Shown: in pieces, positions 56,534 to 61,885 of the stretch | How the letters are laid out: every line of letters starts with the position of its first letter | Position numbering within the stretch: the first letter of the stretch is position 1 | DNA from: Bifidobacterium felsineum | Lineage (GTDB): Bacteria; Actinomycetota; Actinomycetes; Actinomycetales; Bifidobacteriaceae | DNA length: 64,000 bases | Assembly: GCF_002802915.1 (NCBI RefSeq) | Contig: NZ_PEBJ01000001.1 | Span: 62,001 to 126,000 of the forward strand | Direction: 5' to 3' | Made by a program: the position numbers and the translations under genes | Notes under the pieces: generated by a model | Told to the model about the DNA's origin: nothing | Databases searched by the model: none | Seen by the model: the letters and a program-made list of their open reading frames with translations, nothing else

Positions 56534-58978
56534 ATGACCGAAATTACCGCACCAAAATCTCCCGTCACCGCGGACCAGTTCGCTGACGAGATTCGTGAAC
56601 AACTCAAGTACGCTCAAAACGTCACTGCCGAGCAGGCAACCGCTGCTGATGTGTATGTCGCCGCTTCCAAGGCCGTGCGCAACCATCTGGCCGATGCTTG
56701 GTTCAAGACCCAGGCCGACACCGTCAACGGCAACACCAAGGCTGTCGGCTACCTCTCCGCTGAGTTCCTGATGGGCAAGCAGCTGGAGAACGCCCTGCTC
56801 AACGCCGGCTTGACCGAGCAGTTCGACAAGGCTGTTGAAGCCTTGGGCTTCCAGCCGAAGGACATCATCGACGCCGAGTACGAGCCGGGCCTTGGCAACG
56901 GTGGTCTGGGCCGCCTCGCCGCCTGCTTCATCGACTCCCTCGCCTCCCTGGGCGTGCCGGCCTTCGGCTACGGCATCCAGTACAAGTACGGCATCTTCAA
57001 GCAGACCTTCGACGAGAACGGCAAGCAGGTCGAAACCCCTGATTACTGGCTGAACAACGAAGAGCCGTGGGGCCACATCGACTACAACCGTGACCAGAAG
57101 GTCTCCTTCGGCGGCGAAGTCGTTGAGGAGAACGGCAAGAAGGTGTGGAAGCCGGCTTGGTCCGTGCGCGCCGTCCCAGTGGACTACCTGGTTCCGGGCT
57201 ATGCTTCCGGCCGCGTGAATACCCTGCGCCTGTGGACCGCCAAGAGCTACGACGAGTTCGATCTGCTCGCCTTCAACCGCTCCGAATACATGGACGCCGT
57301 CAAGCCGCAGGTCAAGGCCGAGAACATCTCCAAGATTCTCTACCCGGAGGATTCCACCAAGGTCGGCAAGGAGCTGCGCCTCGAGCAGCAGTACTTCTTC
57401 GTCTCTGCCTCCCTGCATGACGCCATCCGCGTCTTCTACCCGGGTCAGGACAAGCCGGATCTGACCACCTTCCCGGACAAGATTACCTTCCAGCTCAACG
57501 ACACCCATCCGGTGATCGGCATCCCGGAGCTCATGCGCATCCTCATCGATGAGTACGGCTACGACTGGGATACCGCCTGGACCGTGACCCAGAAGACCTT
57601 CAACTACACATGCCACACGCTGCTGCCGGAAGCCCTCGAGGTTTGGCCGGCAAGCCTGATCGGCGAACTGCTGCCGCGTCACCTTGAGATCATCAAGAAG
57701 ATCAACGAGCAGTTCGAGGACGAGCTCAAGGGCAAGGGCATCGACGACAAGACCATCGAAGACATGCGCATCTACACCGGTGACGCAGTCCGCATGGCCT
57801 ACCTCGCCACCTACGGCGGCTCTCACGTCAACGGCGTTGCCGAGCTGCACTCCCAGCTGCTCAAGGACGTCACCCTGAAGAACTTCTCTGACGCCTACCC
57901 GACCAAGTTCACCAACGTGACCAACGGCGTGACCCCTCGCCGCTTCGTCAAGCTCGCCAACCCGGGCCTGTCCGACCTCATCACCGAGGGCCTCGGCACC
58001 GACAAGTGGATCTCCGACCTTGAGCTGCTCAAGGGCCTGGTCCCGCTGGCCAAGGACGACGAGTTCGTCAAGAAGTTCGCCGCCGTCAAGGCCGCCAACA
58101 AGCACGCCTTCGTGGGCTTCGCCAAGGACCACTACGGCATCGACGTGGACGAGAACACCCTGTTCAACACCATGGTCAAGCGTCTGCACGAGTACAAGCG
58201 CCAGAGCCTGAAGATCCTGCTGGTCATCTCCCAGTACGCCGCCCTCAAGAACGGCACCCTCAACGCTGAAGAGATCCTGCCTCGCACCGTGTTCTTCGGC
58301 GCCAAGGCAGCCCCGGGCTACTACCTGGCCAAGATGACCATCGAGCTGATCAACAACGTCTCCAAGGTCATCAACAACGATCCGGACGTCAAGGGCAAGC
58401 TCGCCGTCTACATGCTCCCGAACTACAACATCGAGATGGCACAGAACCTCATCCCGGCCACCGAACTCGACGAGCAGATCTCCCAGGCCGGTAAGGAAGC
58501 CTCCGGTACCGGTAACATGAAGTTCGCTCTGAACGGCGCTCTGACCGTCGGCACCCTTGATGGCGCCAACGTCGAGATTCGTGAGAAGGTCGGTGCCGAG
58601 AACTTCTTCCTCTTCGGCATGACCGTGGACGAGGTCGAGAAGCTCTACGCCGACGGTTACGACCCGGCCAAGTACTACGAAGCCGATCCTCGCCTGAAGC
58701 AGGCCGTCGACCTCGTGGCCAACGGCACCTTCTCCAACGGTGACCGCAACGCCTACGCTCCGCTCGTGGCCGACTGGCTCACCAAGGATTGGTTCATGGC
58801 TCTCGCCGACTTCTCCTCCTACGCCGACATCCAGGCTCAGATCGAGAAGCTCTACCGCGATCCGCTCGAGTGGAACCGCAAGGCCTTGCTCAACGTGGCC
58901 AACTCCGGCTACTTCAGCTCCGATCGCTCCATCGAGGATTATTTGGAACGTATCTGGCACACTGGTCCGCTCGCCTGA
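56534..58978 (+). CDS. glgP: Glycogen/maltodextrin phosphorylase
   Basis: Cleaves alpha-1,4-glucans with phosphate to glucose 1-phosphate. The 814-residue GT35 protein has the PLP-binding Lys in EASGTGNMKFALNGALTVGT, and GNGGLGRLAACFIDSLA and RVNTLRLWTAKS in the catalytic core. GGAAGGAAAG lies before ATG 56534. Heavy C-ending codon bias points to high expression. Its last 26 bp are repeated 134 bp downstream (59087-59112), so the 3' end has been rearranged. Confidence 0.96.
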   Translation: MTEITAPKSPVTADQFADEIREQLKYAQNVTAEQATAADVYVAASKAVRNHLADAWFKTQADTVNGNTKAVGYLSAEFLMGKQLENALLNAGLTEQFDKAVEALGFQPKDIIDAEYEPGLGNGGLGRLAACFIDSLASLGVPAFGYGIQYKYGIFKQTFDENGKQVETPDYWLNNEEPWGHIDYNRDQKVSFGGEVVEENGKKVWKPAWSVRAVPVDYLVPGYASGRVNTLRLWTAKSYDEFDLLAFNRSEYMDAVKPQVKAENISKILYPEDSTKVGKELRLEQQYFFVSASLHDAIRVFYPGQDKPDLTTFPDKITFQLNDTHPVIGIPELMRILIDEYGYDWDTAWTVTQKTFNYTCHTLLPEALEVWPASLIGELLPRHLEIIKKINEQFEDELKGKGIDDKTIEDMRIYTGDAVRMAYLATYGGSHVNGVAELHSQLLKDVTLKNFSDAYPTKFTNVTNGVTPRRFVKLANPGLSDLITEGLGTDKWISDLELLKGLVPLAKDDEFVKKFAAVKAANKHAFVGFAKDHYGIDVDENTLFNTMVKRLHEYKRQSLKILLVISQYAALKNGTLNAEEILPRTVFFGAKAAPGYYLAKMTIELINNVSKVINNDPDVKGKLAVYMLPNYNIEMAQNLIPATELDEQISQAGKEASGTGNMKFALNGALTVGTLDGANVEIREKVGAENFFLFGMTVDEVEKLYADGYDPAKYYEADPRLKQAVDLVANGTFSNGDRNAYAPLVADWLTKDWFMALADFSSYADIQAQIEKLYRDPLEWNRKALLNVANSGYFSSDRSIEDYLERIWHTGPLA

Positions 58979-59260
58979 CGGCTCGGAACCAGTACGCCAG
59001 ATACGTGCTGGTTCCTACCTCGCGGCATAGCCGCTCGGCGTCGCCTACGGGAAGCCCACCGGGCTTCCCGCTTAACGGCTCCGCACTCTGGCACACCGGC
59101 CCGCTCGCCTGATAATGGAGTGTCCTCGTCGTTGCAGAAGGCTCGACGTACCTTCGTACGCCGTCGCCTTCTGCGCCTAGAGGCCGCACGCATTATCAGT
59201 TCCAGCAAGCTCGCTCTGCTGGCCTGACGTAATCAGGACGCACCAGCAAGCTCGCTGGTT
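58979..59260. repeat. Mosaic of hairpins with a duplicate of the glgP 3' end
   Basis: The last 26 bp of glgP (58953-58978) recur with two mismatches at 59087-59112. Between the copies are GGAACCAG/CTGGTTCC (58985-59015) and CGGGAAGCCC-acc-GGGCTTCCCG (59048-59070). Beyond lie an outer stem CTGATAATG/CATTATCAG (59109-59199) enclosing GCAGAAGGC/GCCTTCTGC, and a direct repeat CCAGCAAGCTCGCT at 59202 and 59243. No gene is seen here. Confidence 0.78.
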
Positions 59261-59763: not shown

Positions 59764-60492
59764 ATGCATATGCCGACTAAACGTGAAATCAAATATTCGT
59801 GGGACCGCGGCGGCCCGGTGATCACATGGGCGATTATCGTCGCATGCACAGTCGTATGGCTGATCGAAGTACTGCTGGGCCTTATTTCGCCGTTGTTGCA
59901 GGGGCTGCTGATCTATCAGGGCATGATGTCGCCAATGACGATGGTGTCCCGCCCGTGGACCGCAATCACATCAATGTTCCTCCACGCGCCGAACACCATC
60001 ATGCACATTCTGTTCAATATGATCGCCTTGTATTCCGTGGGGCCGGTGCTTGAGCGCATGATGGGGCATTGGCGCTTCCTTGGGTTGTACATCATTTCAG
60101 GTCTTGGAGGAGCACTGGGCCTGATGCTTTGGGGCGTATTCGCCCCGGGCGGCAAAGGCTGGCAGATGGCCGCTTATGGTGCATCCGGTGCTATTTTCGG
60201 TCTGTTCGCCGCCATATTGGTGGTGTATCGCCGCATTGGTGCCGATATTCGATCGATGATGATCTGGATGGCCATCAACTTCGCATTGCCGTTCGTTGTG
60301 GGCGGTGTGGCTTGGCAGGCGCATATCGGCGGTTTCCTGATCGGTGGTCTGTTGACCTGGCTGCTGACCAGCGGATTGCCGTTCTGGCGGCATAAAAGCC
60401 TCACATGGCGGATGCAGGTTTACGGATGGTCCGTCACTGCGATAGTGGTGGTGGCGATTCTGCTGTGCAATATCGCCAATCCATACGCCTAG
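59764..60492 (+). CDS. Rhomboid intramembrane serine protease
   Basis: A 242-residue protein with six or seven membrane helices. The catalytic Ser141 lies in YGASGAIFG and His187 in WQAHIGGFLIGG. Asn85 in HILFNMIALYSVGP and the rhomboid segment near HAPNTIMHI complete the site. It would cleave membrane proteins in their transmembrane helix. TACAGT lies 7 bp before ATG 59764 and no ribosome site is seen, so the mRNA may be leaderless. ATG 59770 is an alternative. A repeat array follows. Confidence 0.88.
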   Translation: MHMPTKREIKYSWDRGGPVITWAIIVACTVVWLIEVLLGLISPLLQGLLIYQGMMSPMTMVSRPWTAITSMFLHAPNTIMHILFNMIALYSVGPVLERMMGHWRFLGLYIISGLGGALGLMLWGVFAPGGKGWQMAAYGASGAIFGLFAAILVVYRRIGADIRSMMIWMAINFALPFVVGGVAWQAHIGGFLIGGLLTWLLTSGLPFWRHKSLTWRMQVYGWSVTAIVVVAILLCNIANPYA

Positions 60493-60512
60493 CGATGATA
60501 CGAACTTCCTAG

Positions 60513-60743
60513 GGGCTCATTTTTTCGAGAAAATCCCTGACTTCGTGAAAACACGCCACTGAATATGACTAAGTGGCGTGTTTTTCGAAATAAGACCTTA
60601 TTTCGTGAAAAGCGGCCACTGAGCACCCGTCAGTGTCCTATTTTCACGAAGTTGGGGATCTTCTCGTGAAAATGCGCCACTCAGCCATACTCGGCGACTT
60701 CTTTTCACGAAAAGTGGCTTATCCGCGAAAAAATAAGCCACTC
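60513..60743. repeat. Array of palindromes, family 4, copy B (60-61-bp period)
   Basis: The same array as at 25016-25246: a right half arm, hairpins beginning near 60542, 60602 and 60663, and a closing left half arm near 60724. Arms are TTCGTGAAAA-GCCACTGA and complements. It ends 7 bp before the first DnaA box of the adjacent cluster. Confidence 0.82.
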
Positions 60744-60749
60744 CGATGG

Positions 60750-61220
60750 TTATCCACAGCCTTTTCATCCCAGTGACAAAATATGGGGACCGTTTGGAGG
60801 CCAAAACGCTAGATATAGGGGTGCTCACAACCAATCCACTAAAACGAGTGGATAGTTGTGCACAATTGTGGAAAAGACGGTGGATAACTCAAGTGCAATG
60901 TGGATAACCGAGTAATCCACAATAACGGCGGTGAATAACTCATCACTTAAGGGTTGTGGATAACTCGGTACTATCCACAGCCCTCAAGGTGTATAAATGG
61001 CGCTTTTTGTCAACAATCCCTAGTTATCCACTACTTATACACCGCTGAATACCCCTTATCCACGTGTTATCCACTACTTATCCACAAGGTTTTCCACATT
61101 CGGTGGAAAACTACAGAAATGTAATTCATCCACATTGTGTGCATAAGCATGTGGATAACTAGTGGATAAGTGGTGGATAGCTGTGGGTAAGTCGGTGCTG
61201 GCCCACATGGATGTGCATAA
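60750..61220. other. DnaA-box cluster, candidate replication origin
   Basis: Five perfect TTATCCACA boxes: 60750 and 61078 on plus, 60899, 60955 and 61150 on minus. Four more fit TTWTNCACA: 60867, 61090, 61138 and 61212. At least ten further sites have one mismatch, so about 20 boxes lie in 470 bp on both strands. The stretch has no open frame of note. It is flanked by a family 4 array and by crgA, a gene usually near oriC in actinobacteria. The dnaA gene is not in the window. A clear AT-rich unwinding element was not identified, so this could be oriC or a DnaA-titrating locus. Confidence 0.7.
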
Positions 61221-61260
61221 GCGCTGGATCAATCAATTGTTGCCTAGAATAAAAAGAAAT

Positions 61261-61293
61261 AAAAAAACCGACCCCTTCTCAAGGAGTCGGTCT
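61261..61293 (-). terminator. Terminator of crgA
   Basis: Stem ACCGACTCCTT / AAGGGGTCGGT with a short loop, followed by seven T on the minus strand. Confidence 0.8.
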
Positions 61294-61337
61294 TCAATAC
61301 AACGATTAGGCGGTGCAGCCACCTGTTGACGTGGAAC

Positions 61338-61796
61338 TCAGCGCCATCCCATTGTCATCAGGAATCCGATCATGATCAGCGCGAAGCCGATTGCCAGGTT
61401 CCAAGCACCGATGTTCGGAATCGGCCAAGCGCCGGACGGGGAGAGGTAGTACACCACGCACCAAATCAGACCAATGATCATGAACGCGCAGAACACCGGC
61501 ACGAACCAACGCGGGTTGGACTTGGTGCCCTTAATGGTCTCCTCAACGCGCTTGGTGTTCTCTGCCTGGCGGTTCATCATGCGCTGCATCTGCGGGGTCA
61601 GCGAAGCCTTATCGGCAGTAGCGTTGAGCACGGCCTGCACCTTGTCCATATCAACGCCGTAAGTCTCATCTTCGTCGGCAGCGGCGTTGGTGTCGGTGTC
61701 AGTGCTCTCCGTGGCCTTGGCATCTGCGGATGCGGTCTCCTTCTGCCAGTCCTTCTGGTCCTTCGAGTCGTTTTCGTGCAGCTCTTCGTCAGCCAT
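61338..61796 (-). CDS. crgA: Cell division protein CrgA
   Basis: A 152-residue septum-associated membrane protein that helps place divisome and wall-synthesis proteins in actinobacteria. A long acidic N-terminal part (about 1-75) precedes two helices (WFVPVFCAFMIIGLIWCVVYYL and IGAWNLAIGFALIMIGFLMTMGW). Between them is LSPSGAWPIPNIGAWN, the CrgA signature. The N-terminal extension is longer than in mycobacterial CrgA. ATG 61796 has GGAG 9 bp upstream. It is divergent from the DUF881 gene, as is usual. Confidence 0.9.
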   Translation of the reverse strand: MADEELHENDSKDQKDWQKETASADAKATESTDTDTNAAADEDETYGVDMDKVQAVLNATADKASLTPQMQRMMNRQAENTKRVEETIKGTKSNPRWFVPVFCAFMIIGLIWCVVYYLSPSGAWPIPNIGAWNLAIGFALIMIGFLMTMGWR

Positions 61797-61885
61797 CAGC
61801 GTATTCTCCATTCAATAGGCTAAAAGTCATAATAGTGGCTAGACTCGAAACCAGTGGACAAACCGTGTAAAAAGACGGGATTTTT

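Follow-up and report, generated by a model that had tools for sequence, protein, structure and literature searches.

Clusters of DnaA boxes near oriC are reported to repress untimely initiation in Bacillus subtilis and Streptomyces coelicolor (PMC4585315, PMC5742627, PMC10950094). The B. subtilis clusters consist of several DnaA boxes near, but outside, oriC (Okumura et al., 2012); those of S. coelicolor are an actinobacterial case and likewise lie apart from oriC (Smulczyk-Krawczyszyn et al., 2006). Two other kinds of locus are known from Escherichia coli: datA, which promotes hydrolysis of the ATP bound to DnaA, and DARS, at which DnaA releases ADP. An IHF site is required at datA, where the essential boxes share one direction, and box I of DARS2 is opposed to boxes II and III (PMC5742627). 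The low-affinity sites of E. coli oriC are arranged in two opposed arrays (PMC4285127). For Bifidobacterium longum, Lee et al. (2008; PMC2430713) reported three oriC clusters, slightly off the place predicted from strand asymmetry. Here, we describe a dense cluster of DnaA boxes beside crgA in Bifidobacterium felsineum and compare it with these systems.

The window is the whole analysed stretch of 64,000 nucleotides (contig C11:62001-126000; the genome comprises 20 contigs and 2.38 Mb). An earlier note on it had described about 20 DnaA boxes beside crgA and had offered three readings: the true oriC, a second origin-like region, or a site that titrates DnaA. The count was fair. Counting both strands, 18 sites in window positions 60750-61220 (470 bp) match TTATCCACA with at most one mismatch, five of them perfectly; beyond these five, four boxes fit TTWTNCACA (two TTTTCCACA and two TTATGCACA). 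In 2000 composition-preserving shuffles of the stretch, sites within one mismatch numbered 0.13 on average and never more than 2. When two mismatches were allowed, 28 sites were found in 60500-61300, and the perfect box occurs 57 times genome-wide. The location was also as described: the cluster fills the gap between two convergent genes, a rhomboid gene (3' end at 60492) and crgA (3' end at 61338), both identified by Pfam (Table 1).

Table 1. Features of the crgA-rhomboid region, in window coordinates.
Feature	Position	Strand	Remarks
Rhomboid-family membrane protease gene	59764-60492	+	Pfam Rhomboid, 1.5e-26; no neighbour of the cluster is more constant than its 3' end
DnaA-box cluster	60750-61220	both orientations	box count compared with shuffles
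Left part of cluster, more variable	60867-60979		boxes at 60867, 60879, 60899, 60913, 60955, 60971
Array of four boxes	61056-61098	+	starts at 61056, 61067, 61078, 61090; steps of 11-12 bp
Conserved core (about 50 bp)	61078-61126	+	box a 61078-61086 (+), b 61090-61098 (+), c 61102-61110 (-), then CTACA-N4-TGTAATT
Palindromic non-box element AACTACA-N4-TGTAATT (TACA-N4-TGTA)	61109-61126		dyad centre
Mirror triple	61126-61158	-	c' 61126-61134, b' 61138-61146, a' 61150-61158
Facing box array	61138-61190	-	61138, 61150, 61161, 61172 (two mismatches), 61182; steps of 10-12 bp
Terminator-like hairpin	61263-61295	-	between crgA and the cluster
crgA, cell division protein	61338-61811	-	Pfam CrgA, 5.2e-27; convergent to the rhomboid gene

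In the core, a box (+) is followed after 12 bp by a second box (+), after a further 11-12 bp by a box (-), and then by TACA-N4-TGTA. The consensus common to the clusters is GTTATCCACA-n3-TTTTCCACA-n2/3-TGTGGAAAACTACA-n4-TGTAATT. In the window and in close relatives, the core is doubled around a dyad at about 61118, giving the order a-b-c, palindrome, c'-b'-a'. Distances between same-strand boxes of the Bifidobacterium clusters peak at 11-12, 21-23, 32-34, and 43-44 bp, and distances between facing boxes peak at 11-12, 23-24, and 35 bp, which is about one helical turn per box; shared descent inflates both sets of counts. These facing arrays recall the opposed low-affinity arrays of E. coli oriC. 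When stretches of roughly 0.4 Mb each from four Bifidobacterium genomes were surveyed, the +/+/- triple was found only at the dnaA-dnaN oriC and at the crgA-side cluster, at both in 4/4 genomes; the crgA-side element thus repeats the assembly module of oriC. The Bifidobacterium oriC itself (dnaA-dnaN gap, C11:46468-46701) carries the triple with 12- and 11-bp steps and resembles the cluster in the number and types of its boxes. It differs in adjoining dnaA and dnaN and in lying near parS and the skew minimum; no TACA-N4-TGTAA motif is present in the part of it that was read.

Like the clusters of the B. subtilis and S. coelicolor type, the locus at crgA has multiple DnaA boxes close to oriC but not within it, and its place, density, and conservation fit this origin-proximal kind. 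B. subtilis belongs to another phylum and its clusters have other neighbours, whereas the locus described here has 18 boxes, facing phased arrays, an oriC-like triple, and a palindrome. Streptomyces differs in having about 3-7 boxes at crgA and no TACA-N4-TGTA palindrome. Like E. coli datA, the cluster is a non-coding DnaA-box locus outside oriC, at a conserved genome place and subject to early duplication. However, the boxes of datA are one-directional and those of the cluster core are opposed (+ + -), and the IHF consensus WATCAANNNNTTR had no match on either strand of 60700-61260. Assignment to the datA class was rejected on the IHF site and the box direction; an unrelated bending protein could take the place of IHF at the cluster.

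CrgA was found in 61/61 sampled Bifidobacterium genomes, and a cluster of at least three boxes was found in 51/61 regions around crgA, mostly within about 250 bp of the rhomboid 3' end. The cluster stays with the rhomboid gene where the latter is several kb from crgA (G020, G035, and G051) and, in G045, where it is placed on the opposite side of crgA. In one group of genomes, which have no detectable rhomboid gene, the cluster is 3' of crgA. Among the ten cluster-less regions, four belong to genomes with the core elsewhere (G001, G004, G005, and G010), five are near a contig end, and one (G043) has a degenerate core. The third box together with the palindrome was present in 55/66 Bifidobacterium regions, and in 8/8, 2/2, and 1/3 of those from three further genera. 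The 3' part of the core (61102-61126), searched with up to three mismatches, occurs exactly once in 22/24 whole Bifidobacterium genomes; the reversed-sequence control gave zero matches. Conservation extends to the boxes and the core but not to the spacers, and the element retains its identity when the neighbouring genes change. In 19 genomes, it is located 14-139 kb from dnaA (1.2-10.8% of the half-chromosome) despite a rearranged neighbourhood. Species differ in box number, from a few to about 20, so simple titration capacity is not conserved. Several genera of the Bifidobacteriaceae have no cluster at the crgA place; hence, loss is possible, and the element is dispensable or replaced there. 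Both observations count against a conserved DnaA-binding regulatory locus.

Beyond the genus, families and genera are referred to by f and g numbers, which are search handles. In Streptomyces, exact TTATCCACA or TTGTCCACA boxes were found in the crgA-rhomboid gap of 80/80 loci, about 25-310 bp past the crgA stop codon. The gap holds 254 such boxes versus 24 in the remainder of the loci, a 343-fold difference by length. These loci were taken from 80 named records with a Streptomyces CrgA query, to which the matches were 89-96% identical. The Streptomyces consensus, GAGTTATCCACAGGCGTTTTCCACAGTGGGGAAAA...TGTGGATAAC, is similar to the Bifidobacterium core as far as the third box and is without the palindrome; in 43/80 loci, a +/+/- triple can be fitted if its third box is allowed to be degenerate. 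Two genomes of family f22, taken for Streptomyces, have the strict facing pair TTATCCACA-N18-48-TGTGGAYAA at a single site in 9 Mb, next to crgA. Looser box pairs are located 17-90 bp past crgA in families f4, f16, f21, f29, and f36. Roughly a hundred matches distributed at random over genomes of several Mb would give far fewer than one crgA-adjacent case. Since the other families were searched with box-pair patterns and crgA coordinates, a genome without a pair may still have boxes. Conservation at crgA in other species, raised as a check in the earlier note, is strongly supported in Bifidobacterium, Streptomyces, and further families. One of the S. coelicolor clusters is reportedly named after a cosmid that carries crgA, which is a lead, rather than a test, that it may be the site at crgA. 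No open-access paper tying crgA or the rhomboid gene to DnaA boxes was found.

We consider that the cluster is probably a conserved origin-proximal DnaA decoy or regulatory locus, to which DnaA would bind, and not an origin. Because an oriC-type triple is set in two facing, helically phased arrays, DnaA would be expected to assemble cooperatively on the cluster, much as on oriC. The cluster has no evident unwinding element; hence, it should not start replication. Given its position at 1-11% of the half-chromosome from dnaA, the cluster would be duplicated soon after each initiation. The extra copy would take up, or help inactivate, DnaA, and this uptake would delay the next initiation. Two points favour titration or inactivation: the copy number would increase directly after initiation, and oriC is imitated with no evident unwinding region. 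A site that titrates DnaA is thus the best supported of the three readings first offered, and its effect on initiation is what we infer from arrangement and position.

The topology of the core also fits DARS, whose action is the opposite, and this weighs against titration. If the cluster acted as a DARS-like site, the core boxes would hold ADP-DnaA head-to-head, ADP would be released, and recharging with ATP would promote initiation. In the K-12 MG1655 sequence, the DARS2 core has one box opposed to two others, with gaps of 5 and 3 bp. DARS1 and DARS2 share with the cluster three core boxes, one of which is opposed to a tandem pair spaced by 3 bp; in the cluster, it is the core that is conserved, more than the surrounding boxes. 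However, the opposed gap is 2-3 bp in the cluster versus 5 bp in DARS2, many more boxes surround the cluster core, and Fis or IHF sites are neither known nor found at the cluster. Furthermore, the triple is present at oriC in 4/4 genomes; the topology is not specific to reactivation, and by itself it cannot separate DnaA restraint from recharging. We therefore regard a DARS-like function as rather unlikely.

The preferred reading, a DnaA decoy or regulatory locus, was also compared with functions in transcription. No sigma-70-type promoter was found in the convergent crgA-rhomboid gap; as the gap is convergent, promoter control of crgA or the rhomboid gene was rejected as unlikely. An Rfam search of the locus gave no match to a structured RNA. 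Two repeats were noted in the surrounding sequence. The motif CGYGAAAA-n-GCCACT occurs four times, about 60 bp apart and as part of imperfect hairpins, in the interval from the rhomboid gene to the cluster (60544-60742); single or paired copies also occur at C11:87132, 87193, 185881, and 416682, so the motif looks like a dispersed intergenic repeat. At 58954-59113, the final codons of the glycogen phosphorylase gene (TCTGGCACACnGGnCCGCTCGCCTGA) are found again about 130 bp downstream, which looks like a partial duplication of the end of the gene.

DnaA bound at the cluster might instead serve as a transcription roadblock, separating the crgA and rhomboid transcripts, or anchor the origin region near the division machinery. 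From Bifidobacterium to Streptomyces, the boxes stand in a convergent gap beside a division gene, and a transcription-terminating DnaA-dnaA-box complex is described in a reference cited by PMC10950094. Nevertheless, the terminator-like hairpin of crgA already precedes the cluster, and facing many-box arrays exceed what a roadblock needs. The element is also retained in genomes whose crgA is kilobases away or on a different contig, and in those whose rhomboid gene has moved or is undetectable. A roadblock or an anchor is thus unlikely.

That the cluster is a functional replication origin, whether the main one or a second or conditional one, is very improbable. Its box number equals that of the dnaA side, it has the oriC-like triple, and the three oriC clusters reported for B. 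longum by Lee et al. (2008; PMC2430713) are slightly off the predicted place. All of these would agree with an origin, but the evidence from the dnaA side is against it. The sole dnaA of the genome is at C11:44.6-46.1 kb, outside the window, in which the earlier note had found no dnaA; the distance to the cluster (C11:122.75-123.22 kb) is about 77 kb, in line with its guess of tens of kb. Three box groups are located on the dnaA side (C11 40.8-41.0, 44.45-44.51, and 46.47-46.70 kb), and perfect 16-bp parS sites stand at C11:39435, 41665, and 42376, all three no more than 6 kb from dnaA, whereas no parS was found near the crgA cluster in the stretches examined. Cumulative GC skew, which had been proposed as a check, was computed from genome stretches. 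In the first 320 kb of C11, its minimum is at 56 kb. The minimum is 8-13 kb past dnaA in three genomes, namely G000 and the single-contig genomes G038 (11-13 kb) and G051 (8-10 kb), and not at crgA; the cluster is 77, 119, and about 140 kb from dnaA in these genomes, respectively. G044 was left out, as 33 kb next to its dnaA reads N and the skew is irregular there. The most AT-rich 25-mer is 72% inside the boxes (76% when the crgA terminator is included), no more than the 72-80% of the dnaA-side groups, and no replication gene adjoins the cluster. The true oriC was ruled out by the skew, the parS sites, and the three dnaA-side box groups. For a second origin-like region, only the boxes speak; there is neither a stretch more AT-rich than the dnaA side nor a skew turn at the cluster.

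In this genome, the skew minimum is downstream of dnaA, not at dnaA (C11:45000-57000), and G038 and G051 have counterparts. The steady offset of about 10 kb may be the slight difference described for B. longum in PMC2430713. Of the seven box types in Lee et al. (2008; PMC2430713), TTATGCACA is present in this genome in the crgA cluster but absent from the dnaA region. This hints that the third B. longum cluster may be the crgA cluster, although the strains differ.

An inert relic of an ancestral origin, retained by chance, would account for the oriC-type triple and the place near the present origin, but is hardly credible, since a relic would decay, yet boxes and core are kept while spacers diverge, one copy per genome persists across the genus, and boxes stand at the same place in Streptomyces.

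At the proposed DnaA decoy or regulatory locus, a putative second protein may bind the TACA-N4-TGTA palindrome of the core. In the stretches of G000, G038, and G051, AATTACA-N4-TGTxA occurs only between two DnaA boxes upstream of dnaA (TTATCCACAAATTACAnnnATGTTATTCACA), and the cluster core bears the close form AATTACA-N4-TGTAG on the minus strand. Judging from these sequences, the same protein may act on both, but this is a suggestion only, since their spacings to the next box differ by 3 bp. With two mismatches allowed, the motif by itself is not rarer than expected by chance; the evidence is its conservation and context. Upstream of dnaA, AATTACA-N4-TGT (C11:44450-44515) is a possible site of a putative dnaA regulator.

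As a tentative extension, the locus may possibly be an ancestral actinobacterial replication-control element, kept in the crgA-rhomboid gap from Streptomyces to Bifidobacterium, which would build an oriC-like DnaA complex. In Bifidobacterium, a putative second protein, acting at an AATTACA-N4-TGT-type site common to the dnaA promoter, would couple DnaA synthesis to sequestration or recycling. Once-per-cycle control of initiation is poorly known in bifidobacteria and in actinobacteria generally. A small, non-coding, single-copy element, conserved in sequence and position, is a direct handle on it, as it can be deleted, moved, or added, and the palindrome common to the cluster and the dnaA promoter points to a putative regulator of dnaA. 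The single copy of the core per genome across the genus and the similar sites at the corresponding spot in Streptomyces suggest an old switch that restricts the frequency of chromosome copying. Should the boxes next to crgA in Streptomyces and in Bifidobacterium prove to be one element, initiation control by DnaA boxes would belong to an old lineage beside a division gene and would not be an isolated adaptation.
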